DNA from: a virus
DNA length: 35,661 bases
IMG/VR virus record: IMGVR_UViG_3300044620_001311
Coordinates: 1 to 35,661 of that record
Reading direction: 5' to 3' (one strand)
The notes below the pieces were generated by a model. It made no database searches, was not told the DNA's origin, and worked only from the letters and a program-made list of their open reading frames with translations. The position numbers and the translations under genes are program-made. This document shows, one piece after another, positions 1-35,661 of this stretch. How positions within the stretch are numbered: position 1 is the first letter of the stretch; each line of letters opens with the position of its first letter.

Positions 1-61
1 GGGGCCGCCAAACGCGCTGGGGGGCTCTAGCGACAGACCAAAAAACCGCATTTTGTTTTCG

Positions 62-2177: not shown

Positions 2178-2449
2178 CCGAGCCTTCTGCTGCGTGGGTG
2201 GACCTTCAAAAGATTACCCGCCACGAGTATCTCCCAACAAACAGCGTGGGTCGGCTGTATTGTTGGCCGTGCTGGGATCGGCTTGAGAATGGGGAGCCGG
2301 AGTTGCACCAAAGCGGGCGCCCGGAAACGTGCGACCATTGCGGGCAAACAATCACACCCAACGCGGGGCATTGGTGGGAGCTTGAGCTTCCAGCAAACGA
2401 GCCGTGGTGGAAACGAGAGCCGCAAGCCTGCTTTGTAAAAGCGCCATGA
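2174..2449 (+). CDS. Small zinc-ribbon-like protein between the terminase subunits
   Basis: A 91-residue protein with four cysteines spaced C-x2-C-x19-C-x2-C (C30, C33, C53, C56), which reads as a treble-clef or zinc-ribbon zinc site. It is rich in tryptophan (WPCW, HWWELEL, EPWWKRE). It overlaps the small terminase by 4 bp and the large terminase by 4 bp, both as ATGA, so the three are one translation unit. I do not recognise a named family. Placement suggests an accessory to packaging; a nucleic-acid-binding regulator is also possible. The spacing does not match the P2 Ogr/Delta activator pattern. The alternative, that it is a chance frame, is unlikely because both junctions are precise overlaps and the cysteines are well ordered. 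Confidence 0.72.
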   Translation: MTEPSAAWVDLQKITRHEYLPTNSVGRLYCWPCWDRLENGEPELHQSGRPETCDHCGQTITPNAGHWWELELPANEPWWKREPQACFVKAP

Positions 2450-4389
2450 CCGAGCAAACGCTGGCCGTCTGGGAGCTGGCGGCTTGCGTGGCGAAAACGC
2501 TCGCCCCTCCTCCCAAGTGGACCGTCTCGCAGTGGGCGGACCACCGACGCCGCCTTTCCGGCGAGGCATCCGCCGAGCAAGGGCAGTGGCGAACGAGCCG
2601 GGCCGAATACCAGCGCGGAATCATGGACGCCATTTGCGATCCCGCGCTTGAAATGACCGTGGTCATGTCATCCGCCCAGGTGGGCAAATCCGAGATGCTC
2701 CTGAACGCGATCGGCTATTTCGTCGATTTCGACGCCTCGCCCATTCTCGTGCTCCAGCCTAACCTCGAAATGGCGGAAACGTTCAGCAAAGACCGCATCG
2801 CCCCGATGCTCCGCGACTCTCCCACGCTCCGGGGCCGCGTCCGAGATCCTCGCGCACGCGACGCAGGCAACACGACGCTCCACAAGCGTTTCCCGGGCGG
2901 ACACGTCACCCTTGCGGGCGCAAACGCCCCGGCCTCCCTGGCATCGCGCCCCATTCGCGTTCTCCTAATGGACGAGGTGGACCGCTACCCGGCCAGCGCC
3001 GGGACCGAGGGCGACCCGATGCGGCTTGCCATGAAGCGGACCAATAACTTTTGGAACCGGCGCGTCATGGCCGTTTCAACCCCGACGGTCAAAGGCTTCT
3101 CCAGGATCGAGAACGAATGGAGCCGATCCGATCGGCGCTTTTTCTTCATCCCGTGCCCGCATTGCGGATCCGAACACGTCTTGAAGTGGGGGAATGTCGT
3201 TTGGCCGGAGGGCAAGCCGGACGAGGCCGCGATGAAGTGCCCCGAGTGCAACCTCACATTCAGCACCGCGCAGAAAAACGCCGCCGTTTCCCGTGGCGTT
3301 TGGAAAGCGACCGCCCCTTTTTCGGGCGTTGCGGGCTTCCACATTTGGGAAGCTTACTCCCCGTGGCGCACCCTGGCCGAGATCGTCCGCGACTTCCTCG
3401 CCAGCAAAGACGACCCCTCCACGCTCCAGGTTTGGGTCAACACCTGCCTCGGGGAAACTTGGGAGGAAGCCGGGGACGCAGTGCAGGAGCACGACTTGAT
3501 TTCACGCTGCGAGGTTTTCCCCGCCGACGCCGACATTCCGCAGCGCGGCCTTGTGCTCACCGCTGGCATTGACACGCAGCCCGACCGTTTGGAGGTGGAA
3601 GTGGTGGCGTGGGCAGGCGGGGAGGAGAGTTGGTCGATTGATTACCGCGTTATTTTCGGAGATCCCGACATTCCCGAGGGCGCAGCGGGCAGCCCGTGGA
3701 ACGATTTGACCGACTACTTGAGAAAGCCGTGGCGACACGAAAGCGGCGGGCAACTCGTTATTGAGGCCGCGTGCATCGACTCGGGCGGACACAACACGCA
3801 AGCCGTTTACCAATACGCAAAAAGGCACCGCGGAGCCCGCGTGTTTGCAGTAAAAGGGAAGGGCGGGCCGGGCGTTCCAATCGTGGGCAACCCCTCCCGA
3901 CGCCGCGCAGGGGCCAAGACCAAGCGCCCCGTGGACGTTTATATCGTGGGCGTGGATCAGGCCAAAAGCGTCATCATGAAGCGCCTCAAGCTGACGGCCC
4001 CCGGCCCCGGCTACTGTCATTTTCCGATGGGCAGGGCCACGGACTATTTCAAGCAGCTCACCGCTGAAAAGATGCTGACCAAGTTCGTGAAGGGTTTCCC
4101 GCGCCGCGAGTGGGTCAAGGCCTCCGGCCAGCGCAACGAGGCGCTCGACTGCCGCGTGTACGCATTCGCCGCTTTGGTTCTTCGCGCTCCGCAGTTCGAC
4201 AAAATCGCCTTCCGCGTGCAACAGCGCGCACAAGCCGCCCGCGCAAACCCGGAACCGCCAGCGCCACCGCAGCAGCCTCAGGAGGACGCGAGCAAACGCG
4301 CACAAGACGACCCGAAGCCCGCATTGTCAAATGATCGGAAACCGCCGCCCAGAAAACGGGCGCGCATTCCTTTCATCTCTCAATGGTAA
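2446..4389 (+). CDS. Terminase large subunit, lambda gpA family
   Basis: A 647-residue ATP-driven packaging motor and nuclease. The ATPase has a Walker A (SSAQVGKSE, K81) and a Walker B (VLLMDEVDRY, D176/E177). A zinc-ribbon-like CPHCG...CPEC pair follows (DNA about 3160-3250), as in many gpA homologues. The C-terminal half carries the nuclease with acidic patches (TAGIDTQPDRLEVE, EAACIDSGGHNT). The start is taken at the ATG of the 4-bp overlap with the zinc-ribbon gene, not the in-frame GTG at 2404. The tail is basic and proline-rich and includes SKRAQDDPKP. That peptide is encoded by the first copy of the repeated late-promoter element. The last 7 bp overlap the next gene. Confidence 0.95.
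   Translation: MTEQTLAVWELAACVAKTLAPPPKWTVSQWADHRRRLSGEASAEQGQWRTSRAEYQRGIMDAICDPALEMTVVMSSAQVGKSEMLLNAIGYFVDFDASPILVLQPNLEMAETFSKDRIAPMLRDSPTLRGRVRDPRARDAGNTTLHKRFPGGHVTLAGANAPASLASRPIRVLLMDEVDRYPASAGTEGDPMRLAMKRTNNFWNRRVMAVSTPTVKGFSRIENEWSRSDRRFFFIPCPHCGSEHVLKWGNVVWPEGKPDEAAMKCPECNLTFSTAQKNAAVSRGVWKATAPFSGVAGFHIWEAYSPWRTLAEIVRDFLASKDDPSTLQVWVNTCLGETWEEAGDAVQEHDLISRCEVFPADADIPQRGLVLTAGIDTQPDRLEVEVVAWAGGEESWSIDYRVIFGDPDIPEGAAGSPWNDLTDYLRKPWRHESGGQLVIEAACIDSGGHNTQAVYQYAKRHRGARVFAVKGKGGPGVPIVGNPSRRRAGAKTKRPVDVYIVGVDQAKSVIMKRLKLTAPGPGYCHFPMGRATDYFKQLTAEKMLTKFVKGFPRREWVKASGQRNEALDCRVYAFAALVLRAPQFDKIAFRVQQRAQAARANPEPPAPPQQPQEDASKRAQDDPKPALSNDRKPPPRKRARIPFISQW
4290..4332 (+). promoter_or_regulatory. 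Late promoter element, copy 1 (upstream of connector and portal)
   Basis: Exact copy of GRGCAAACGCGCACAAGAC at 4290-4308 (R = A), followed after 18 bp by TCAAAT (4327-4332), a weak -10-like hexamer. It lies inside the 3' end of the large terminase gene. This is the one copy whose start codon is not at the predicted +1: the next gene starts at 4383, giving a leader of about 44 nt. The promoter role is inferred from the shared architecture of five copies. Confidence 0.6.
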
Positions 4390-6411: not shown

Positions 6412-8340
6412 ATGTCAGTCCTCAACAAATTCCTCGCGGAACCCATGCGGCGCGTTCTCAGCGTTGCAAGCGTGGACGCCGCAGCGCGAACCGTTGAACT
6501 TGCGTTCTCCTCTGACGTTGAGTTGGAACGCTGGCCCGGAGTCGCAGAAAAACTTTCCCACGCCCCGGGCGCTTGCGACCTCTCGCGCCTCAACGACCGG
6601 GCGAACCTCCTTTTCAACCACGACCCGGACGCAGTGCTGGGCGTGGTCGAATCCGCCAGAATCGACGCCGATGGATTTGGCCGAGCCGTGGTGCGGTTTG
6701 GAAAATCCGAAGACGCCGAGGAGGCATGGCAAGACGTACAAGACGGAATCCTGACGAAGGTTTCCGTCGGCTATCGCATCACCGAGGTGAAGCTCTTGCA
6801 GGAAAGCGAGAACGGCCCCGACGTGTACGAAGTCCGCAACTGGCAACCCTACGAGATCAGCCTCGTGACAATCCCCGCCGACCCCAGCGTCGGCATTGGC
6901 CGCAGCGCCGAGCCCGTCGAGGCCCCGGCAAAGAAACCATTCAATAGAAAAAACCTTATGAACCGTGAGCAATTGATTGCGCTCCTCCAAAAGCGCGGAA
7001 TTACCATCCCTGAAAACGCAAGTGACGCCGATTTGGTGAAGCTTGTGTCAGAAAACGAAGCGAGCCGCGTAAGCGTGGAAGCCGAGCGCAGCGCCGGACG
7101 CCAAGCCGAACAGGACCGCGTGAAGTCGATCCTTGCCGCTGGCAAGCAATACGGCATGAACGACGCCGCATTGCGCGCCATCGAAGAGGGCCGCTCGATC
7201 GACCAAGCCCGCGAGCTTTTCCTTGAGGAAATGAACAAGCGGAACAGCCGCGTTGCTGACGGTGCGAAACCTATCGGCCTCAGCGAGAAAGAAGCCCGAA
7301 GCTTCTCTTTTGTGCGCCTCCTCCGCGCACTCACCGAGCCAACCGACCGTGGCGCGCAAAACGCCGCCGCTTTCGAGCTGGACGCTTGCACCGCCGCAGC
7401 CGAGCGCGTGAATCATCGGGAGATCAAAGGGACGATGATCCCGAGCGACGTTCTTCTCCAGCCGCTCATGGGCCAGCGCGGAACCAATACCATTTCCATT
7501 GCGTCCGGCGCAGGCTACACCGGCACCGCTGGCAACACCGTTCAGACCACGCTCCTTGCGTCTAGCTTCATCGACCTCCTGAGGAATCGCACTGTGCTCA
7601 TGCAGCTGGGAACCGAGCTGGGAGGGCTTGTCGGCAACTTCGACATTCCGCGCCAGACCACCGGGACCAAGGGTTATTGGGTAGGGGAAGACGTAAACGT
7701 CCAGAAAGAAGACATCGACTTCGGCCTCTTGCAGCTTCGCCCGAAAACCGTCGGCTCCGTCTCCGAAATCACGCGCCGCACGATGATGCAGTCCAGCCTC
7801 TCCGTTGAGGCGCTTGTCCGCGCAGACCTTGCGCGAGGACTTTCGCAGACCATCGACCTTGCCGGTTTCTATGGCGACGGCACCGGGGCCGCGCCCGTCG
7901 GCATCCGCAACACTCCGGGCGTCAACACCGTGACCTTTGCCACCGCAGCCAAGCCGACCTTTGCCGAGCTGGTGCAGATGGAAACCGAGATTGCCCTCGA
8001 TAACGCCGATGTCGCCGCGATGGCCTACGTTGCAAACGCCGGATTCCGTGGGCACGCAAAAACCTCGCGCCGCCTCAGCACGAGCACGGATTCTATGGCC
8101 CTCTGGGAACCCGGCGGCACCGTCAACGGTTACCGCACCGAGATCACCAACCAGGTCGCAAACGGCCACGTTTTCTTCGGAAACTTTGCCGACTTCATGC
8201 TGGCGATTTGGGGCGGCGTTGAATTGACCGTCAACCCCTACTCGGGCGCGCGCTCCGGGCGCGTGGAAGTTGTGGCCATGCAAGACGTTGACTTCGGCGT
8301 CCGCCGCGCAGCGTCCTTCTGCTTCGGAAACGTAGCTTAA
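6412..8340 (+). CDS. HK97-type prohead protease fused to major capsid protein
   Basis: A 642-residue fusion. Residues 1-165 match the U35 prohead protease family: H70 in LLFNHDPDAVLG and S118 in LTKVSVGYRI are the expected catalytic residues, and YEISLVTIPADP is the conserved closing strand. Residues about 184-300 are charged and helical and fit the scaffolding delta domain. Residues about 335-642 are an HK97-fold capsid (GTNTISIASGAGYTG..., DLARGLSQTIDLAGFYGDGTG, IWGGVELTVNPYSGARSGRVEV). In most phages protease and capsid are separate genes. An internal ATG at 6958 (M183, MNREQLIALL) follows a conspicuously A-rich stretch and could give free capsid protein. The alternative is self-cleavage. 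Copy 2 of the late promoter sits directly upstream. Confidence 0.9.
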   Translation: MSVLNKFLAEPMRRVLSVASVDAAARTVELAFSSDVELERWPGVAEKLSHAPGACDLSRLNDRANLLFNHDPDAVLGVVESARIDADGFGRAVVRFGKSEDAEEAWQDVQDGILTKVSVGYRITEVKLLQESENGPDVYEVRNWQPYEISLVTIPADPSVGIGRSAEPVEAPAKKPFNRKNLMNREQLIALLQKRGITIPENASDADLVKLVSENEASRVSVEAERSAGRQAEQDRVKSILAAGKQYGMNDAALRAIEEGRSIDQARELFLEEMNKRNSRVADGAKPIGLSEKEARSFSFVRLLRALTEPTDRGAQNAAAFELDACTAAAERVNHREIKGTMIPSDVLLQPLMGQRGTNTISIASGAGYTGTAGNTVQTTLLASSFIDLLRNRTVLMQLGTELGGLVGNFDIPRQTTGTKGYWVGEDVNVQKEDIDFGLLQLRPKTVGSVSEITRRTMMQSSLSVEALVRADLARGLSQTIDLAGFYGDGTGAAPVGIRNTPGVNTVTFATAAKPTFAELVQMETEIALDNADVAAMAYVANAGFRGHAKTSRRLSTSTDSMALWEPGGTVNGYRTEITNQVANGHVFFGNFADFMLAIWGGVELTVNPYSGARSGRVEVVAMQDVDFGVRRAASFCFGNVA

Positions 8341-24923: not shown

Positions 24924-24925
24924 CC

Positions 24926-25738
24926 TCAAGGCTTCTCGTTCGGGGCTTTTGCAAGCTCAGCCTTTTCCGGCTCCCAGAGCTTCACATCGTCAAAGCGGAA
25001 GAAAAATTCGGGTTCTGTCATGGCTCCGTTTTCGGTGAGGCTGCCTTCGCTCATGTGGTCCCGTCTTTGCCCATCCGGGAAAAACGACCCGGAAAAAACC
25101 ACGGTTGCGTTTTTGGGCAGACTCGAAAGCACCGCATAAAGCGTGGAGGTTGGCGCAATCAGAGTTTTCCCGAGCAGAGCTTCCGAAAACTCGTTGTTCG
25201 ACGTTTTCAAAACCGCATTCGACCCCGTAAGTCGCACCTCGATGTAAGCCAACCCGTCCGAAGTGGTCCCCATCTTTTCCAGCGTCCCAACCCACCCGGA
25301 GACAGTTTTTGAGGGAAATGCCTTTTGCATTTCCGCCCGTCTCTCAACGCGAGCGGCTGATTTTTGCAGCTCGTTTTCAAGAGCGGAATAGCGTTCCGCA
25401 TACGCCCCGACGATCTTTCCGAAAAGCGCCTGCTGAGGCGGCACCGTGACAACCGGCTTTTTCGGTGGAGTCACCGGGCGCGCCGTGGCGGTTGCTGAGG
25501 AAGACGCCTTGGCGGGAGCCGTGGCGGGAGCCGTGGCCGCATCACCCGAGGAGCTTTTGCCCACGATTGCCAAGAGCACAATCAAAGCCAGCGAAAGAAC
25601 GATGATGATTCCAAGACATCCAGAAAGCGCCTTGGTTGCCTTCGTTTTCGGAGTCACGACTGGAGCGCCGCAACTCGGGCAGGTTTTCGCCTTGTCTGAG
25701 ATTTCCTTGCCGCATTCGGTGCATTTTATCAGAGCCAT
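24926..25738 (-). CDS. Zinc-ribbon, single-span membrane protein (accessory gene)
   Basis: A 270-residue protein encoded opposite to the virion genes. Residues 4-25 form a zinc ribbon (C6, C9, C20, C23, IKCTECGKEISDKAKTCPSCG), a common bacterial N-terminal domain. Residues about 39-60 are one membrane span, followed by an A/S/T/P-rich linker (65-105) and a soluble, probably periplasmic domain with beta segments (WVGTLEKMGTTSDGLAYIEVRL, TVVFSGSFFPDGQRRDHM). Similar architectures occur in bacterial genomes, so this is a likely host-derived moron expressed from the prophage; exclusion of other phages is one possible role. It converges with gene D, leaving a 2-bp gap. Specific function unknown. 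Confidence 0.75.
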   Translation of the reverse strand: MALIKCTECGKEISDKAKTCPSCGAPVVTPKTKATKALSGCLGIIIVLSLALIVLLAIVGKSSSGDAATAPATAPAKASSSATATARPVTPPKKPVVTVPPQQALFGKIVGAYAERYSALENELQKSAARVERRAEMQKAFPSKTVSGWVGTLEKMGTTSDGLAYIEVRLTGSNAVLKTSNNEFSEALLGKTLIAPTSTLYAVLSSLPKNATVVFSGSFFPDGQRRDHMSEGSLTENGAMTEPEFFFRFDDVKLWEPEKAELAKAPNEKP

Positions 25739-25745
25739 CCCGCCC

Positions 25746-25773
25746 AGCTAACAGGCCGACCGCGCACCGCCAA
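25746..25773 (-). promoter_or_regulatory. Possible promoter of the zinc-ribbon membrane gene
   Basis: On the minus strand TTGGCG (25773-25768), 16 bp, TTAGCT (25751-25746), then 7 bp to the ATG at 25738. The -10-to-start spacing is like that at the late promoters. Boxes are only moderately close to consensus. Confidence 0.35.
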
Positions 25774-25802
25774 GCCAAACGCGGAAACTTTCTTTCATTT
25801 AG

Positions 25803-25821
25803 TTGCAAATTTTGTTTGCAA
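25803..25821. promoter_or_regulatory. Inverted repeat in the divergent intergenic region
   Basis: TTGCAAA (25803-25809) and TTTGCAA (25815-25821) form a 7-bp inverted repeat with a 5-bp spacer, overlapping the -35 box of the rightward promoter. It is a candidate operator for control of the accessory cassette. Confidence 0.45.
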
Positions 25822-25844
25822 ACGAAAAGAGCCCGTGCAATAGT
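25816..25844 (+). promoter_or_regulatory. Sigma70-like promoter of the accessory cassette, leaderless
   Basis: TTGCAA (25816-25821), 17 bp, AATAGT (25839-25844), then 6 bp to the ATG at 25851. Spacing is ideal for a housekeeping sigma factor, and +1 would fall on the start codon. The gap is much more AT-rich than the flanks. Confidence 0.6.
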
Positions 25845-25850
25845 TCTCCC

Positions 25851-26150
25851 ATGAACAACACGAAACACACCAAACAATACCTCAACGGCCTCACCCCGCT
25901 TTATTCCGGAAAACTCCAGAAAATGGCGGAGCAGGGCCTTGTCTTCGTCTGCGAGTGCCGGGAAGAGGGTTGCGACCCTCTCCCTGAGGGTTTTGCCACC
26001 CTCGGAGAAGCCTGCGCCCGAGCGGAGGAGTTAAACGCCCTACCCCTCGATGCGGGGGACGAGGGGGAATGGTTTGCGGATCATGCGGTCTACCAGCTCG
26101 AACAGGACGAAGACGGCGATTGGTTCACCACATTCGAGCGCCTCAACTAA
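25851..26150 (+). CDS. Small acidic protein, accessory cassette
   Basis: A 99-residue acidic protein with about 20 D/E residues and few basic ones. The N-terminal third is basic (NNTKHTKQYLNGLTPLYSGKLQK), followed by VFVCECREEGCDPLPEGFATLGEACARAEELNALP and an acidic C-terminus (QLEQDEDGDWFTTFERLN). The cysteines (C34, C36, C41) could form a metal site. No family is recognised. Its location between tail genes and integrase and its own promoter suggest a gene expressed in the prophage or very early, such as a defence-inhibitor; this is inference. The start is set by the first ATG, 6 bp after a -10 box. Confidence 0.6.
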   Translation: MNNTKHTKQYLNGLTPLYSGKLQKMAEQGLVFVCECREEGCDPLPEGFATLGEACARAEELNALPLDAGDEGEWFADHAVYQLEQDEDGDWFTTFERLN

Positions 26151-26161
26151 CCAGTTCCCAC

Positions 26162-26188
26162 ACTGCCCCCGGACTCCCCGGGGGCAGT
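26162..26188 (+). terminator. Strong GC hairpin between accessory genes
   Basis: A perfect stem CTGCCCCCGG (26163-26172) / CCGGGGGCAG (26178-26187), extended by one A-T pair at 26162/26188, encloses a 5-nt loop. There is no U-run after it, so intrinsic termination may be partial. It lies 12 bp after the stop of the first accessory gene. Confidence 0.6.
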
Positions 26189-26211
26189 AGGGAGCCGGGA
26201 AAGCCGGACGA

Positions 26212-26229
26212 ACACACACACACACACAC
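26212..26229 (+). repeat. (AC)9 microsatellite in a 5' leader
   Basis: Nine AC units end 9 bp before the ATG of the next gene. The leader contains no Shine-Dalgarno sequence; it resembles the A/C-rich, G-poor leaders seen before several other genes here. Repeat-number changes could alter expression. Confidence 0.85.
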
Positions 26230-26238
26230 CAAAAACTC

Positions 26239-26460
26239 ATGAGCACCACACCAACCATCGCAGAAATTCTCGCCGCAAAGGCCGAAGCCGGTCCTGACGC
26301 TTATCTCTGGCTCCAAGCGGGCGCAGGGGATTGCATTCTCTGGGCGTCCGAGGAAGACGCGGAAAACGACGACGGAAGCAAAGCCCTCCAGCGGTGGCAA
26401 ATAACCGCTGAGGAAGCGGACAACGCCGAGCTTCTGGCGGAAGTAGACGACCTCAACTAA
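26239..26460 (+). CDS. Small, very acidic protein, DNA-mimic-like
   Basis: A 73-residue protein with about 17 D/E and only 3 K/R residues, so strongly negative. Acidic residues are grouped (ASEEDAENDDGSKALQRW, ITAEEADNAELLAEVDDLN). A short hydrophobic core (AYLWLQAGAGDCILWA) suggests a small folded beta/alpha unit. Size and charge fit known DNA-mimic inhibitors of restriction or CRISPR systems, but many small phage proteins are acidic and no family motif is present. It is preceded by the hairpin and an (AC)9 leader, so its expression can be set apart from its neighbour. Confidence 0.6.
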   Translation: MSTTPTIAEILAAKAEAGPDAYLWLQAGAGDCILWASEEDAENDDGSKALQRWQITAEEADNAELLAEVDDLN

Positions 26461-26469
26461 GCCCTGAAC

Positions 26470-26853
26470 ATGACAACGACCAAAAAAGGAAAAGTCGCTT
26501 TTCAGCTACCGGGCAGCGCAACCGCCCGCGAATACTGGCTGGAATGGGAGCGGGACTGGCTGACCGTCATTGACGGAGAAAGCCGCGCCGATTTTTTCGA
26601 CCTGAAAAAAGGTCAGGCGCTTTTCAAGTCCGGGGAAGGCGTTTGCGATGACTGGCAGGCCGCAGAATGGGAAGCGGTTTTTCGGCTCATGCGAGCCAAG
26701 GCAATAGGCCGCAAACCGCTTCCCGCTGAGCGGAAGCGCGTTCGGCTCAACACCATCGTCGCGCCGGAGACGCTCCAAAAAATCCGCGAGCTTTCCGAGG
26801 CCGGGAATCTCTCCCTCGGTCAAGTGGTGGATCAGTGGGCGGGCAAAAAATAA
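26470..26853 (+). CDS. Small protein with ribbon-helix-helix-like C-terminus
   Basis: A 127-residue protein. Residues 1-70 are acidic with tryptophans (YWLEWERDWLTVIDGESRADFFDLKKGQALF, DDWQAAEWEAVFRLM). Residues about 88-125 (KRVRLNTIVAPETLQKIREL, then SEAGNLSLGQVVDQWA) fit a ribbon-helix-helix DNA-binding pattern: a beta strand with alternating basic residues, then two helices linked by a glycine/asparagine turn. It may be an antitoxin-like or local transcription regulator. No toxin is visible next to it. It starts 9 bp after the previous stop. Confidence 0.6.
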   Translation: MTTTKKGKVAFQLPGSATAREYWLEWERDWLTVIDGESRADFFDLKKGQALFKSGEGVCDDWQAAEWEAVFRLMRAKAIGRKPLPAERKRVRLNTIVAPETLQKIRELSEAGNLSLGQVVDQWAGKK

Positions 26854-26869
26854 AACAACACCCAGAAAC

Positions 26870-27214
26870 ATGAACGAGAACGACGAAATGAAACAAGCGT
26901 GGTCAAAGGTGGAGCAATTGGGCAAAGACGTGCAGAGCGCTTACGCAGCTTTTCTAGACGCATCCGACATGCTCGCCCAAGGACTCATGTTTAAGCGTGA
27001 TTATGTGCTTGGTAAACTAATGCCTAACAAAATGACTCATGAGCAAAGGCGCGACGTGAGCCGAGTCGACGCTTTTTTGAAAAGCGAAAAAGATTGCTTC
27101 CGTAGATTTTGGGATAAGGAACAACAAGAACTCAAACGTGAGGCGCTTCTTGAACGCCTAGCACTGAGCCAAGCTGAAAAGAGGCTTCTTGGCATCGCGG
27201 ATCAAGAGCCCTGA
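26870..27214 (+). CDS. Unknown helical protein, AT-richer than its neighbours
   Basis: A 114-residue, all-helical, charged protein (MKQAWSKVEQLGKDVQSAYAAFLDASDMLAQG..., HEQRRDVSRVDAFLKSEKDCFRRFWDKEQQELKREALLERLALSQAEKRLLG). The DNA at 26980-27140 is clearly less GC-rich than nearby genes, a sign of recent acquisition. The leader is A/C-rich. The 3' end overlaps the end of the convergent integrase gene by 13 bp. No function can be assigned. Confidence 0.55.
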   Translation: MNENDEMKQAWSKVEQLGKDVQSAYAAFLDASDMLAQGLMFKRDYVLGKLMPNKMTHEQRRDVSRVDAFLKSEKDCFRRFWDKEQQELKREALLERLALSQAEKRLLGIADQEP

Positions 27215-28368
27215 GGTGTGAGATAGTGCGCCTCCGTGGTGGCGCTTGAGGTATGGCCTAGAGCCTCTTGCGCCGCCCTTACGCCCGCGAGCCGGGCCGC
27301 GATCGCGTCACGGGTGAGCGTGGCCACGTTGTCTGCGTAGAGACCCCGGAGCCGATGCAGCGGCTTGAGTGCGCCGACCCCGTGCGCGTGGAGCCATTGC
27401 TGCGGGGCTCTTTCAAACCACCGCGACCGCTCGACGGTCCCGGGCGACACCACAACCAGGGAGTCCGGTGGAGCCACGGCGGCAAACGCGGCGAGGTGCC
27501 GCGCAAGGCCAGCCTCTATGACCTCCGCCCGGTAGGGTTTGCCGGTTTTCGTCCACCATTTTTCCTCCGGGCGGTCCCTGAGCGAGATCCGCACGAGCGC
27601 GCCCTCGAGCTCCAGCCAACCGGCCCGGAGCGCCGCAATCTCCTCCCGGCGCATCCCCGCAAACCGGGCCAGCCCGACCACTAGCCAGAGCGCCGGGTCG
27701 ATCTTCTCCAGCGCCCGCCACGCCTCGACAAGCGCGGCATCATCGACCTTCGAGGGCGGCACGTAGGGCTCCGGGAGCATCACGGCCTCCCCGGCCTCCG
27801 TGCGGCAGTCCAGCCCTGCAGTACGATAGACGCGCACCAACGCAGGCAAAAACAGGCAGCGCGCCACCCGCACGGCGGAGTTGACCGCGATGTTTTCGCG
27901 GTAACGTGTGGCCAAGTCGAACCGGAGCCCCTGAGCCTCCAGGGCGGCGCGTTGGTAGCGTTGCCAGAGATCCGGCCCGACTTCGCGACAGGTGACGGCG
28001 GACAGCTCTTTCCCGAGCGCCAACCGGCACACCGTCCGCAGGCGGGAGACGTTATCTTTGGCGACGTTCGCCTTTGTCCGCTTGGGGGTCTCTAGGTAGA
28101 GCCGGGCGAGATCCTCCAGAGAGCCGCCGCCCCGGCCCGGCTTCCAGCCCTCCGCAGCGTGCTTTTCGAGAAATTCTTTCGCACGCGTTTTGGCTTCCGC
28201 AAGGTTCGTGGTCCCGGTCCAAAAGTCCACGGGGTGAGTTTTGGAGCGCGAGCGCATCCGCCAGCCGCGTTTGGCCTGAAATATGAGCGGCCACACCCTG
28301 CCGTCATGTTTCAGCTCGGCAGTTTTTTGAGGGCAGGATGAGGGCACATTTGAGGGCAGAGAGGCCAT
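27202..28368 (-). CDS. int: Tyrosine-recombinase integrase
   Basis: A 388-residue phage integrase. Catalytic residues are visible: R240 (FAGMRREEIAALR), a lysine in the following beta region (K274 or K277), H338-x-x-R341 (LHRLRGLYAD), H372 (EALGHTSSATTEAHY) and the nucleophile Y382. An arm-binding/core-binding N-terminal half precedes it (KEFLEKHA, NVAKDNVSRLRTVCRLALGKELSAVT). The ATG at 28368 is chosen; the frame stays open to 28533, but that part would translate the tRNA-derived att core. The first codons overlap three TGAGGGCA direct repeats. It integrates the genome at a tRNA-Leu(UAG) gene. It is leftward, adjacent to attP. Confidence 0.93.
   Translation of the reverse strand: MASLPSNVPSSCPQKTAELKHDGRVWPLIFQAKRGWRMRSRSKTHPVDFWTGTTNLAEAKTRAKEFLEKHAAEGWKPGRGGGSLEDLARLYLETPKRTKANVAKDNVSRLRTVCRLALGKELSAVTCREVGPDLWQRYQRAALEAQGLRFDLATRYRENIAVNSAVRVARCLFLPALVRVYRTAGLDCRTEAGEAVMLPEPYVPPSKVDDAALVEAWRALEKIDPALWLVVGLARFAGMRREEIAALRAGWLELEGALVRISLRDRPEEKWWTKTGKPYRAEVIEAGLARHLAAFAAVAPPDSLVVVSPGTVERSRWFERAPQQWLHAHGVGALKPLHRLRGLYADNVATLTRDAIAARLAGVRAAQEALGHTSSATTEAHYLTPQGS
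28328..28358 (+). repeat. Left-arm integrase-site-like direct repeats
   Basis: TGAGGGCA occurs at 28328-28335, 28339-28346 and 28351-28358, spaced 11 and 12 bp (one helical turn), inside the first codons of integrase. The related TGGGGGCA occurs in the same orientation on the other side of the att core. Proposed arm-type sites. Confidence 0.6.
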
Positions 28369-28444: not shown

Positions 28445-28457
28445 GTTTTCGAGAAAA

Positions 28458-28515
28458 TGCCGGGGAGGGGACTCGAACCCCTACTCTGTAAAGAACCAGA
28501 TCCTAAGTCTGGCGC
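28458..28515 (-). other. attP: attP core: 3' part of a tRNA-Leu(UAG) gene
   Basis: Read on the minus strand this is a tRNA 3' portion: anticodon stem CCAGA/TCTGG (28512-28496) with loop CTTAGGA (anticodon TAG), a long variable arm, T stem-loop AGGGG-TTCGAGT-CCCCT (28482-28466), acceptor strand CCCCGGC (28465-28459) and discriminator A (28458). The 5' half does not form a proper acceptor or D arm (the 7 bases at the expected 5' end cannot pair with CCCCGGC), so it is not a whole tRNA. Phages carry such 3' halves so that integration restores the host tRNA. It lies next to the integrase gene. The exact core limits need the host sequence. Confidence 0.85.
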
Positions 28516-28558
28516 TGACTCGCCGCTAAGCATTCAGGGCAAAGGGTTTGCGCAGAGC

Positions 28559-28591
28559 TGGGGGCAATCGTGGGGGCAATTTGTGGGCGCA
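28559..28591 (+). repeat. Right-arm integrase-site-like direct repeats
   Basis: TGGGGGCAAT at 28559-28568 and 28571-28580 (12-bp period), then the weaker TGGGCGCA at 28584-28591. Same orientation and core (TGRGGGCA) as the left-arm set. No gene covers this stretch, which argues that the repeats are functional rather than codon-driven. Confidence 0.62.
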
Positions 28592-28598
28592 GTAATTA

Positions 28599-28627
28599 CC
28601 GGACACACTTTAGCGGAGTGTGTCCGG
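28599..28627. terminator. 11-bp perfect hairpin right of attP
   Basis: CCGGACACACT (28599-28609) and AGTGTGTCCGG (28617-28627) with a 7-nt loop. No U-run on either side. It could end the leftward BRCT transcript before it enters the att region, or be a protein-binding site. The remaining bases to 28790 (about 160 bp) hold no gene or clear signal that I can support. Confidence 0.5.
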
Positions 28628-28790
28628 GAATTCCGACGACACGGATTCAAGGGCCACCTCCGAACCCTTCCGTTGACGCGCACGGAATGCCTTTTTTGAG
28701 CGCCAAAAGGCTTTGTTTCCCATTGTGGGAACTCAACCAGGACGCCGCTTCCCGTTTTGGGAACCTCGCCGGGAAGCATCGGGGCCGGTG

Positions 28791-29521: not shown

Positions 29522-29953
29522 TTACTGCTTCCGAATCACAGCAAGGATGCTCCGAATAGCCATCCACACGCCGGGGTCCGTGGCGATGTGCTCGCAAAGC
29601 CAAGCGATGGCCTCCGATTGTTCCCGCGTGCATTTCGCGGTGGATGGCGTCGCCTCCTCCCTAAGAACCATCGTCGAAGACTCCTGAGCCGCAACCAAAT
29701 CAACGACGCGCACCAAATAAGCCGCGTTCGACGGTAGTTCGTCGCGCAGATGCGCCGAAGCCAAGGCCGCTTTGTCTTCGGGATCTTTCAGCGCCTCGAT
29801 TAGCTTTTGCAGGTGCTCAAATCGTGGCCGGTGCTGGCCGGTAAAATACCGGTGAATGTTCGACGGCTCAAGACCCGCCATCCGGGCAAGGTGAGCCTGA
29901 GGCCAGTTGTGGCGGTCGAGTATCAATTGCAGTGCGTTTGAAAATTGGCTCAT
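29522..29953 (-). CDS. XRE-family repressor, CI-like
   Basis: A 143-residue protein with an N-terminal helix-turn-helix (MSQFSNALQLILDRHNWPQA and HLARMAGLEPSNIHRYFTGQHRPRFEHLQKLIEAL, helices at about 19-45). The C-terminal half is helical (QSEAIAWLCEHIATDPGVWMAIRSIL) and has no visible LexA-type Ser-Lys peptidase, so induction is probably not by self-cleavage. It is transcribed leftward, divergent from the early operon, with inverted repeats in the 82-bp gap, which makes it the likely lysogeny repressor. The ATG at 29953 is chosen: the ORF opens upstream, but the -10-like box TTTATT lies 6 bp before this ATG. Confidence 0.82.
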   Translation of the reverse strand: MSQFSNALQLILDRHNWPQAHLARMAGLEPSNIHRYFTGQHRPRFEHLQKLIEALKDPEDKAALASAHLRDELPSNAAYLVRVVDLVAAQESSTMVLREEATPSTAKCTREQSEAIAWLCEHIATDPGVWMAIRSILAVIRKQ

Positions 29954-30035
29954 GTCTTGAATAAAACGCAATAAAGCAGGGCGCGCAACTTTTCTCTTGC
30001 GCGGTTGCGTTCGTCGCTTTATTGCATTCTCCGCA
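29954..30035. promoter_or_regulatory. Divergent switch region with nested inverted repeats
   Basis: Outer repeat: GCAATAAAGC (29968-29977) and GCTTTATTGC (30016-30025). Inner repeat: CGCGCAA (29982-29988) and TTGCGCG (29997-30003), 8-bp spacer. Leftward promoter: TTGCGC (29988-29983), 17 bp, TTTATT (29965-29960), 6 bp to the repressor ATG. Rightward promoter: TTGCGC (29997-30002), 17 bp, TATTGC (30020-30025), 10 bp to the ATG at 30036. The inner repeat supplies both -35 boxes, and the outer repeat touches both -10 regions. Proposed operators for the repressor. Confidence 0.68.
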
Positions 30036-30215
30036 ATGAGCGACACCAAACTTGATTTGATTACGAAGTTGCGAGACCTGGTTCAGGGACTCGCCCACGC
30101 CAACGGTTGCTCGGCTGAGCAGAGGCTTCTGCTGGCCAGAGAGGAAATTAGATACACGCGCCAAATTGCGAAACTGGCGCGCAATAAGCAGGAGCGCGAA
30201 GACGCTTCAAAATGA
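30036..30215 (+). CDS. First early-operon protein, small, unknown
   Basis: A 59-residue basic, helical protein (SDTKLDLITKLRDLVQGLAHANGCSAEQRLLLAREEIRYTRQIAKLARNKQEREDASK) at the place where lambdoid phages encode Cro or CII. No helix-turn-helix is obvious. The start at 30036 is 10 bp after a -10-like box, so its leader is at most a few bases. It could be an anti-repressor or small regulator; only the position supports this. Confidence 0.55.
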   Translation: MSDTKLDLITKLRDLVQGLAHANGCSAEQRLLLAREEIRYTRQIAKLARNKQEREDASK

Positions 30216-31545: not shown

Positions 31546-32595
31546 ATGGACATCGCAGAAACACAACTGGAAATCATGGGCGGGGACGCCCTCGCGCAGA
31601 TCATCCGCGCAGAGACCGACACGCAAATCACGACCGCGAAGCGTTACCCGCGAGATTTTTCGCTCTCAAAGCGCAAAATGCTCAGCCTCGCCACGCTCGA
31701 CGAAGAGACGGCTGCGGGCTGCTTTTACAAGCTCAACCGTCAAGGGAAAACGATTGAGGGGCCAAGCGTCCGCATGGCCGAGATTGCGATAAGCTGCTTT
31801 GGAAACATCAAAGCCGGGGCTCGCGTGATTGCGAACGACGGGAAAACCATCACCGCCCAAGGCTTCTGTCACGACCTCGAAAACAACGTGGCCGTCTCCG
31901 TGGAGGTGAAACGCCGGATCACGGACAAGGCCGGGAAAACGTATTCCGAGGACATGCAGGTTGTCACCGGAAACGCGGCTTGCGCCATCGCGTTTCGGAA
32001 TGCGGCTTACAAAGTGGTCCCTATGGCTCTCATCAAGCCAGTTTACGAGGCCGCGAAAAAATGCGCGGTGGGCGACCTCAAGACACTGGCCGACCGACGC
32101 ACGGCGGCACTCAAGTATTTTTCGAGCCTTGGAGTGAACGAAAAGCAGGTGCTCGGATACCTCGGGAAAAGCGCGGTGGACGGCATCGACCTTGCCGACG
32201 TTGAAAACCTCATCGGCCTGAGCACGGCCATCAAGGAGGGGAGCACCACCGTTGACGAAGCGTTTTCCGAGAAAAGCGCGGGGCACGTTGTGCAGATCAC
32301 GCCGCTTCCGTCGGTTCAGATCACGCCGCGCACAGCGCAGGCCCCTCTAGCAGAGGAGCCGGTTGAGACTCAGCCAGAGGAGCCTAGGCGGCGCACGGTT
32401 GCGCCCAAAGCCACAGCGCAAGAGGGCCTGCGAAACCTCATGAACTCAGCAAAAGTGGAGGAAGCGGACCTGCTCCGCGTGCTCCAACCTGCCAGCAGGG
32501 CGCAGTCGCTCGACACTCTGACAGACGACGAGGCAAAGAACGCGGTCGCGCACTTCGCGGACGTTCTCGACATGCTGAAAGGGGGCCGCGAATGA
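31546..32595 (+). CDS. Putative single-strand annealing protein
   Basis: A 349-residue protein. The core, GKTIEGPSVRMAEIAISCFGNIKAGARVIANDGKTITAQGFCHDLENNVAVSVEVKRRITDKAGKTYSEDMQVVTGNAACAIAFRNAAYKVVPMALIKPVYEAAKK, has the 'GPSxRxAEixxxxxGNixxGxrvi' signature of phage proteins annotated near RecT/Erf recombinases. The C-terminal part is a proline/glutamate linker and a helical end (EEADLLRVLQPASRAQSLDTLTDDEAKNAVAHFADVLDML). It overlaps the RecE-like exonuclease gene by 4 bp, as in RecE-RecT pairs. The leader is A-rich. A RecT-type annealing role is inferred mainly from the pairing. Confidence 0.65.
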   Translation: MDIAETQLEIMGGDALAQIIRAETDTQITTAKRYPRDFSLSKRKMLSLATLDEETAAGCFYKLNRQGKTIEGPSVRMAEIAISCFGNIKAGARVIANDGKTITAQGFCHDLENNVAVSVEVKRRITDKAGKTYSEDMQVVTGNAACAIAFRNAAYKVVPMALIKPVYEAAKKCAVGDLKTLADRRTAALKYFSSLGVNEKQVLGYLGKSAVDGIDLADVENLIGLSTAIKEGSTTVDEAFSEKSAGHVVQITPLPSVQITPRTAQAPLAEEPVETQPEEPRRRTVAPKATAQEGLRNLMNSAKVEEADLLRVLQPASRAQSLDTLTDDEAKNAVAHFADVLDMLKGGRE

Positions 32596-33410
32596 GCGAC
32601 TTCTCAACGCCGACAATTCGCGGCTTTGGCCCGCCTGACATCCGCTTTGGAATGCCCGACGCAGATTATCGAAGCGCGCTCGGGGTCGCCAACAGCGACT
32701 TGAAACGCATGGAGCAGAGCCCGGCGCACTACCGCGCCCACATGCTCGCCAAAGGGACGCCCAGCAAACCCACGCCCGCGCAGGTTTTCGGGACCGTGCT
32801 CCACGGGGCTCTATTGGAGCCGGAGCGAGTGCTCCACGTTGTCCGCCCGGAGGGGCTTTCGTTCCAGACCAAGGAGGGGAAAGCGTGGCGGGACTCGCAA
32901 ACGCTCCCGATCCTGACAGCCGAGGAGGGCGCGGACATCGCCGGAGCAACCGCCGCGATGCAGGCGCACCCGATCGGAAGCGCGATTCTCCACAAGGCGC
33001 AAAAAGAGGTGAGCGTGTTTTCAAGGTGCCTCGACACGGGCCTTGCGATCAAGGGGCGGCTCGACCTTGTTTTCACCGACGAGACCGGGCGCACGGTCAT
33101 TGCCGACATCAAAACGTGCGAGGACGCCCGCGAGTTTCCGCGAGACGCTCGCAAGTGGGGATATCACCGGCAGGCGGCCTGGTATCTGGACCTCCTCGGG
33201 GCTTCCGCTTTCCTCTTCATCGCCGTTGAGAAGGCCGCGCCCTACGGCATCCGGGTTTTTCAGCTCGACGAGGAGAGCCTTGAGCGTGGCCGGGAGATTT
33301 ACCGGGCCAACCTCCGCACGCTGAGGGAATGCACGGACTCGGCATTCTGGCCGGGCTACTGCGGCGACATTCAGCCTTTGACCATCCGCCCGTGGAAGGA
33401 GGCCGCATGA
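32592..33410 (+). CDS. RecE/YqaJ-type PD-(D/E)xK exonuclease
   Basis: A 272-residue protein. Nuclease residues: GTVLHGALLEP (H71), E139 (KEVSVF), D158 (KGRLDLVF), D172-x-K174 (IADIKT) and Q194/Y198 (YHRQAAWYLD). This is the complete RecE C-terminal/exonuclease VIII-like set. It would chew one strand of linear ends, exposing ssDNA for the annealing protein encoded just upstream; together they can circularise, repair or recombine phage DNA. ATGA-type 4-bp overlaps on both sides place it in a tight operon. The 3' junction has AAGGAGG before the next start. Confidence 0.9.
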   Translation: MSDFSTPTIRGFGPPDIRFGMPDADYRSALGVANSDLKRMEQSPAHYRAHMLAKGTPSKPTPAQVFGTVLHGALLEPERVLHVVRPEGLSFQTKEGKAWRDSQTLPILTAEEGADIAGATAAMQAHPIGSAILHKAQKEVSVFSRCLDTGLAIKGRLDLVFTDETGRTVIADIKTCEDAREFPRDARKWGYHRQAAWYLDLLGASAFLFIAVEKAAPYGIRVFQLDEESLERGREIYRANLRTLRECTDSAFWPGYCGDIQPLTIRPWKEAA

Positions 33411-34621: not shown

Positions 34622-34920
34622 CCTTTTCCGAGCGCGACGCCGCCCTTGCGAGGGTGATGCCGAAGGCGGAGGAGGCTTGCCCAGGGTTTGCCGGTCTGGC
34701 CCGGGCGTTTGTGGTTTCGTTCCTCCGCCTGAAGGGCATTGCGACCGGCGAGGAGATCACCGACGCCGCGATTGAAGCGGGGATTCAACCGCACGACGCC
34801 CGCGCGTTCGGCGGGGTGTTCCTGAGCCTCTCAAAGCGCGGGGTCATCGAGCGGCGCGGCTTTGCCCTCCGGCGCAAGGGCCACAACACGCCCGGCGCGT
34901 CAATTTGGACGCTCAAATGA
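34615..34920 (+). CDS. Winged-helix-like early protein
   Basis: A 101-residue protein: a helix pair (LARAFVVSFLRLKGIATGEEITDAAIEAGIQPHDARAFGGVFLSLSKRGVIERRGFALRRKGHNTPGASIWTLK). The 'xxxxTGEEIxxxxIxxGIxPHDxRAFGxVFxxLxKRGxIxRxG' layout is a winged helix of the kind found next to phage replication genes. It likely binds DNA near the origin encoded in the next gene. It overlaps the next gene by 4 bp (ATGA) and has a good ribosome binding site from the duplicated junction. Confidence 0.62.
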   Translation: MSAFSERDAALARVMPKAEEACPGFAGLARAFVVSFLRLKGIATGEEITDAAIEAGIQPHDARAFGGVFLSLSKRGVIERRGFALRRKGHNTPGASIWTLK

Positions 34921-35661
34921 ACGCGCCTTTCTTCAAGTTCTTTCCCACGGATTTCATCGCCTCGACGGTGGCAATGAGCGCGGAGGAGGCGGGCGCTTAC
35001 ATTCGGCTCCTCTGCTATCAGTGGGAGCACGGGGCGATCCCGGACGACGCTGAGAAACTCGCCCGAATCGGGGGGTGCAGTGGCAGCGCGGTTGAATCGG
35101 TTTTGAATAAGTTTTGTATCCGTTCTGTATCGGGTTTGAAGAACGCCCGTATGGAGGAAGTAAGGGCCTCCATGATCGAGAACGGGGAGAAGAAACGGGC
35201 CAACATTGCCAAGCGTTGGGCCGGGGTGAGCAAAAAAAGCCAAAACGACCCCGAAAACTACAAACCCGATACAAGCACGATACAGACGGAATACAAACCC
35301 GATACAAATGTATCCGGTTTGAATATTCAAAACGCATACCTTCCAGAAGCCAGAAGCCAGATAATAGAAGAGAGAGAGACCCCCGCGTGCGAGGCCGTTG
35401 CAGGTCCGCACCCGACCGAGGAGCAAGTGCTCCGGCATGCCGCCGCCTACATGCCGCCAATTCCCGAGACGTTTGCGAAATCGTGGTGGGCCGAGGCCGA
35501 AGGCGCGGGATGGATCGACCGACACAAACGCCCGATTCACACGGCCCGCTGGAAACGTGCTTTTGAGTCCGCGTGGCTCAACTCTCAGCACGTATCGCAG
35601 GAAATCGCCGCGAGGCAGCGCAACGCGCCAGCCCGCCAGACGCAGCGCGAAAAGGAAGCCG
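34917..35661 (+). CDS. DUF1376 replication protein, 3' end outside the window
   Basis: At least 248 residues, open at the window end. The N-terminus MNAPFFKFFPTDFIASTVAMSAEEAGAYIRLLCYQWEHGAIPDD is the DUF1376 domain, a winged-helix-like domain common in phage replication genes. Residues about 60-160 are a polar linker with YKPDTxxxxYKPDT repeats, encoded by the iteron-like DNA. A C-terminal domain begins HPTEEQVLRHAAAYMPPIPETFAKSWWAEAEGAGWIDRHKRPIHTARWKRAFESAW. It is likely an initiator or helicase-loading protein whose origin lies within its own gene, as with lambda O. The open frame is not seen as a closed ORF because there is no stop before 35661. Confidence 0.8.
   Translation, partial: MNAPFFKFFPTDFIASTVAMSAEEAGAYIRLLCYQWEHGAIPDDAEKLARIGGCSGSAVESVLNKFCIRSVSGLKNARMEEVRASMIENGEKKRANIAKRWAGVSKKSQNDPENYKPDTSTIQTEYKPDTNVSGLNIQNAYLPEARSQIIEERETPACEAVAGPHPTEEQVLRHAAAYMPPIPETFAKSWWAEAEGAGWIDRHKRPIHTARWKRAFESAWLNSQHVSQEIAARQRNAPARQTQREKEA
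35112..35321. other. Putative replication origin: iterons and palindrome
   Basis: CAAACCCGATACA occurs directly at 35261-35273 and 35294-35306 (33 bp apart) and inverted at 35126-35138. A one-mismatch inverted copy is at 35309-35321 and a partial inverted match (TTTTGTATCC) at 35112-35121. The copies at 35294 and 35309 make a 28-bp near-palindrome around GATACAAATGTATC. The region after it (about 35322-35380) is AT- and A/G-rich, unlike the rest of the GC-rich window. This is the layout of a phage origin located in an initiator gene. Confidence 0.55.

Follow-up and report, generated by a model that had tools for sequence, protein, structure and literature searches.

Positions 28458-28515 of the window (the whole 35,661-nt stretch of viral DNA analysed here, an IMG/VR virus record) read, on the minus strand, as nucleotides 25-82 of an 82-nt tRNA-Leu(UAG) whose 5' half is absent. 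The fragment comprises an anticodon stem-loop (CCAGA CTTAGGA TCTGG, with the anticodon UAG in the loop CTTAGGA), a variable arm, a T arm and the 3' strand of the acceptor stem, CCCCGGCA, after which CCA is not encoded. ARAGORN called no complete tRNA at this site or elsewhere in the window. The Rfam tRNA model matches 28458-28540 on the same strand with a score of 28.2 bits, slightly under its gathering score of 29 bits, as would be expected where the 3' half of a tRNA is well preserved and a genuine 5' half is lacking. The initial annotation had described a 3' tRNA-Leu(UAG) fragment without a 5' half at 28458-28515, and the bacterial tRNA match presented below agrees with these limits to the base.

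The gene on one side of the fragment encodes a predicted tyrosine integrase of 388 amino acids (27202-28368, minus strand; PHROG 1 integrase, E 8e-8). The integrase contains the catalytic R...K...HxxR...H...Y set of tyrosine recombinases, and the corresponding motifs GMRREE, the K of WWTK, HRLR, GHT and HYLTP are invariant in five aligned integrase sequences. Searches of Pfam and NCBIfam with this protein gave no hits, PDB gave no significant match, and none of the 50,697 phage records of the phages collection matched it; its fold model is poor (pLDDT 43). On the other side lie genes for a conserved phage protein (28791-29465, minus strand; phrog_3989), a Cro/CI-type HTH regulator that is a candidate repressor (29522-30049, minus strand; PHROGs 8, 3 and 4, and Pfam HTH_3 above cut-off), an exonuclease VIII-like recombination protein (32592-33410, plus strand; phrog_412) and a DUF1376/primosomal protein (34905-35661, plus strand), the last of which is cut by the contig end. 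These gene matches agree with the setting described initially, in which the integrase stood on one side and the regulator and recombination/replication genes on the other.

The remainder of the window is occupied by genes on the plus strand for packaging and the virion. The first of these, at 62-1615, encodes a ParB-like/DNA methyltransferase protein (phrog_498, E 5e-130), and is followed by the terminase small subunit gene (1617-2177; phrog_57) and the terminase large subunit gene (2404-4389; phrog_15, E 6e-254). The terminase has at most 54.6% identity to any of the 50,697 records of the phages collection. Virion genes typical of a contractile tail extend from 4888 to 24923 and include those for the portal, protease/major head protein, endolysin, baseplate, tail fibre, tail sheath, head closure, tape measure and a tail protein. 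The region 24925-27215, which separates the tail genes from the integrase gene, can be aligned only in short pieces among relatives; this variable region may hold accessory genes.

The attP core and flanking repeats

When bacterial genomes were searched for tRNA-Leu(UAG) genes matching the 3' half in the window, as had been proposed, a single exact match was found, in a contig (L002) of a Chthoniobacter flavus MAG. All 62 bases of window positions 28454-28515 (minus strand) are identical to L002 positions 1218-1157, a segment that comprises tRNA nucleotides 25-82 and 4 nt past the tRNA 3' end. ARAGORN predicts an intact tRNA-Leu(tag) at 1133-1214 of L002, and its first bases, GCCGGGG, are those of the acceptor end that the initial annotation had named for a tRNA-Leu(UAG) target. 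An exact 53-bp part of the core was found in one stretch only of the genome_contigs collection (84,980 species), again this C. flavus contig, and so the 62-bp match is not attributable to chance. The MAG itself has one match to tRNA-Leu(UAG). We designate 28454-28515 the attP common core. A 56-bp portion of it (28455-28510) is 100% conserved in the related contigs G002, G003 and G004 and 96% conserved in G005. The integrase gene starts 85 bp downstream of the core (at 28368, minus strand) and is read in the same direction as the tRNA sequence.

Short repeats flank the core on both sides. On the integrase side, three copies of TGAGGGCA occur on the plus strand at 28328, 28339 and 28351 (28328-28358; spacing 11-12 bp), within the 5' coding end of int. 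On the regulator side, two copies of TGGGGGCA are found on the plus strand at 28559 and 28571, with a degenerate copy, TGTGGGCG, at 28582 (28559-28589). Relative to the tRNA end, the TGAGGGCA copies are at -130, -119 and -107, offsets that are kept in G002, G003 and G005, and the TGGGGGCA copies are at +101 and +113, as they are in all four relatives. The left cluster of G004 (L016, approximately 6619-6660) has four copies of TGGGGGC[A/G] in place of the three TGAGGGCA copies, and the motif survives there though the encoded integrase N-terminus has changed. Five of the seven copies of TGRGGGCA in the window are located within 251 bp around the core; 2.4 copies would be expected across the whole 35.7 kb. 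These conserved flanking repeats appear to be arm-type sites to which the integrase would bind. A 16-bp inverted repeat (94%; AATTACCGGACACACT / AGTGTGTCCGGGAATT) is also present just past the right arm sites, at 28592-28632, and is not in the relatives' alignment.

When integration was simulated with a crossover inside the core, attL yielded tRNA-Leu(tag), and attR and attP yielded no tRNA. It is hardly credible that the fragment is instead the decayed remains of a tRNA gene carried by the phage. Phages do carry tRNA genes, and the Rfam model almost attains its cut-off over 28458-28540, but the identity ends at tRNA nucleotide 25, includes the 3' flank and is exact to the host gene; decay would not be expected to leave one half perfect, and the integrase lies alongside with arm-type repeats on both sides. 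The shared core, the arm repeats, the neighbouring integrase and the tRNA restored in simulation together support the assignment of 28454-28515 as the attP of a temperate phage.

Since the putative arm sites span the start region of the integrase gene, as with IntS of KplE1, repression of int by its own product is predicted and is probable. The int frame is open through the whole of attP, from an ATG at 28533 and across the tRNA core, in five relatives. A longer Int started at this ATG would have its N-terminal stretch swapped on integration for one encoded by the host tRNA and, if made, would sense directly whether the phage is integrated; we consider this very doubtful. Translation from the upstream start is made less likely by changes in the amino acids encoded between the core and int (F/S, L/P, N/S, with further changes in G004).

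Genome ends and the source of the DNA

At the left end of the window, positions 1-14 (plus strand), GGGGCCGCCAAACG, form a putative left cohesive end (cos), and the motif CTAG is next, at 27. Among contigs with a related first gene, 19 sequences, the window and G005 included, have CTAG a short distance upstream of that gene. Twelve of the 19 contigs end 25-26 nt before CTAG, so that their ends differ by at most one base (two of these were counted after a sequencing-adapter remnant had been removed). In all, the ends of 11 other contigs coincide with base 1 of the window, which is the same end base as that of L046 and, after adapter removal, of G005. The coinciding ends upstream of the ParB-methyltransferase gene are those of the window (1-30), G005, G291, G295, G301, L053, L058, L060-L064 and L066. 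The same sequence is present at both contig ends in G295 and G301 (13 bp) and in G005 (14 bp), and contigs L097 and L098 bridge the two ends of G005 with the 14-bp repeat present once. The most plausible reading of base 1 is a cos end of the lambda type, with the repeated termini showing the pattern of filled-in overhangs. As in lambda, the putative cohesive ends, of 13-14 nt, begin with GG and lie upstream of the terminase genes, and the large terminase belongs to phrog_15; unlike lambda, a ParB/methyltransferase gene is situated between the putative cos and the terminase, and the overhang sequences differ.

Adapter-like remnants (CGGTGGTCGCCGTATCATT; CAGACGTGTGCTCGTCCGATCT) are joined to the cos base at the high end of G005 (IMGVR_UViG_3300034272_002031) and in the first 22 bases of L053 (IMGVR_UViG_3300032240_001309); we take them to be Illumina sequence. 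Such a junction means that adapter was left in public virus contigs, and it also marks a place where a DNA molecule physically ended. Coinciding ends of metagenome contigs can reveal cos, and can separate free-phage contigs from prophages without the use of long reads.

The right end of the window stops inside the gene at 34905-35661. G005, a contig of 37,991 bp, aligns colinearly with almost all of the window, and both G005 and G003 run on beyond its right end, G005 by about 2.7 kb before cos is reached. This additional DNA in G005 contains 11 more codons of the interrupted gene, then an IstB/DnaC-like gene, an unassigned gene, an SSB gene and an HTH-like gene, followed by cos. Judged from G005, the window is incomplete by about 2.7 kb at its right end, and it does not close on itself across its ends, a possibility raised initially. 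Joining the two ends does give a frame that has an ATGA overlap with the first gene, but such closure is ruled out since G005 and G003 continue with more genes. G292 (L119, G292:C1:5500-7700) has about 700 bp between the HTH gene and cos that is absent from G005 and is probably an HNH-type gene.

With cos terminal and the att site internal, the contig would come from packaged DNA, from a virion or cut from a concatemer; in a prophage the arrangement is the reverse. G005 shares the gene order of the window on either side of the att site, and G002 and G003 share it in the vicinity of the site; in all four relatives the same site has phage genes on whichever sides are covered. It is very unlikely that the window is instead part of a prophage or of tandem prophages, with the tRNA fragment as the attL/attR between them. 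A tandem lysogen would likewise have an att site flanked by phage genes, and IMG/VR includes prophages as well as free phages. However, the 38-kb G005 extends across the site in both directions as one genome, has a single integrase and a single terminase, and closes at cos; the window, for its part, has each module once and starts at the cos base, and no bacterial gene was recognised in it. The evidence supports derivation of the contig from packaged phage DNA and not from an inserted copy, so that the free-phage origin proposed initially now has the stronger support of a cos end at base 1 together with an internal att site.

Lysogens with attL and attR at tRNA-Leu(UAG) were also sought, in modest samples with one genome per species. 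No close integrase match emerged from 286 genomes belonging to the class of the MAG, nor from all 40 of its family, and the terminase gave only five matches in 388 genomes of the phylum, none above 44% identity. Among viral contigs, the exact core was found in known phage genomes only, with no host flank. Integration is accordingly a step that we infer from the phage side, no lysogen, attL or attR having been found in the genomes sampled.

Likely host and proposed life cycle

The exact tRNA match suggests that the likely host is a Chthoniobacter-like freshwater bacterium of the Verrucomicrobiota, a lead provided by one MAG and a conserved tRNA. It is also possible, though we think it unlikely, that the core is a former attP and that the phage now infects some other bacterium whose tRNA-Leu is similar. 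The sequences of tRNAs are conserved, partial matches were found in 113 of the 286 genomes of the MAG's class, the relatives' cores diverge beyond the shared 56 bp, and within these 56 bp G005 has two base differences; a caution in the literature is that att/tRNA matches resolve broad taxonomy only, giving phylum or class (PMC3861242). Against this, the exact 53-bp stretch is confined to this MAG among the 84,980 species, and the next-best match among the 286 genomes from its class has 91% identity.

Taken as a whole, the locus is very probably the attP of a temperate phage with a contractile tail and with a Chthoniobacter-like member of the Verrucomicrobiota as its likely host, a phage whose packaged DNA is cos-ended and which would integrate into tRNA-Leu(UAG) by means of Int. 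From the core, repeats, integrase and cos, for all of which the evidence is in the sequence, we infer a course of circularisation, Int binding, crossover and integration as follows. After infection, the linear cos-ended genome would close into a circle. Int, together with its arm sites, would then recombine attP with the tRNA-Leu(UAG) gene (attB), presumably in the anticodon stem-loop or close to it. The 3' end of the tRNA would then be supplied by the phage instead of the host, leaving an intact tRNA at the integrase-side junction (attL). The resulting prophage would be bounded by the core on each side and would have its cos joined and internal.

Relation to known systems

Attachment sites built from the 3' halves of tRNA genes are textbook for phages. 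A typical core is 30-45 bp long and rebuilds the tRNA, as illustrated by mycobacteriophage Omega with its 44-bp core in tRNA-Leu(CAA) (PMC10865867). The site described here resembles the mycobacteriophage tRNA attP sites in consisting of a tRNA 3' half with flanking arm-type sites (putative here) and in having the tRNA rebuilt at attL (by simulation here), but differs in its 62-bp core, in the use of another tRNA-Leu isoacceptor and in an unrelated host phylum (PMC10865867). Its integrase also differs from those of the mycobacteriophages, and is so divergent that no record of the phages collection matches it. In tRNA-dependent lysogeny, by contrast, a core of about 10 bp does not rebuild the tRNA and a phage tRNA gene compensates (PMC10865867); here, the 62-bp core does rebuild the tRNA, and there is no tRNA gene in the window.

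The KplE1 integrase IntS represses its own gene, and the att site overlies the promoter of that gene (PMC2951348). In common with this module, the tRNA, att and integrase are co-directional and the attL region lies over the start region of the integrase gene, whereas the putative arm sites of the present phage fall within the integrase coding sequence (PMC2951348).

The matching of att and tRNA sequences was published in 2013 as a way of assigning metagenomic phages to hosts, and a marine Verrucomicrobia phage of group G11 was among those assigned (PMC3861242). Like those phages, ours is an uncultured genome in which an integrase is accompanied by part of a tRNA that is identical to a host tRNA; it differs in pointing to a Chthoniobacter-like MAG as the host lineage and in having a cos end identified (PMC3861242).

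The phage group is new to the phages collection, given that the collection holds no match to the integrase and no terminase above 54.6% identity; its integration system is of a known kind and its biology is ordinary. To our knowledge, few temperate phages have been described for Chthoniobacter-like Verrucomicrobiota. With the present analysis, an uncultured temperate phage group gains a likely host, a precise integration target and a genome end. The C. flavus MAG also contains a 33-bp stretch (L004, G001:C28:26486-26518) that weakly matches the phage integrase gene at its 3' end (94%). The stretch is not beside the tRNA-Leu gene, and may be a remnant of the C-terminal end of a related integrase.
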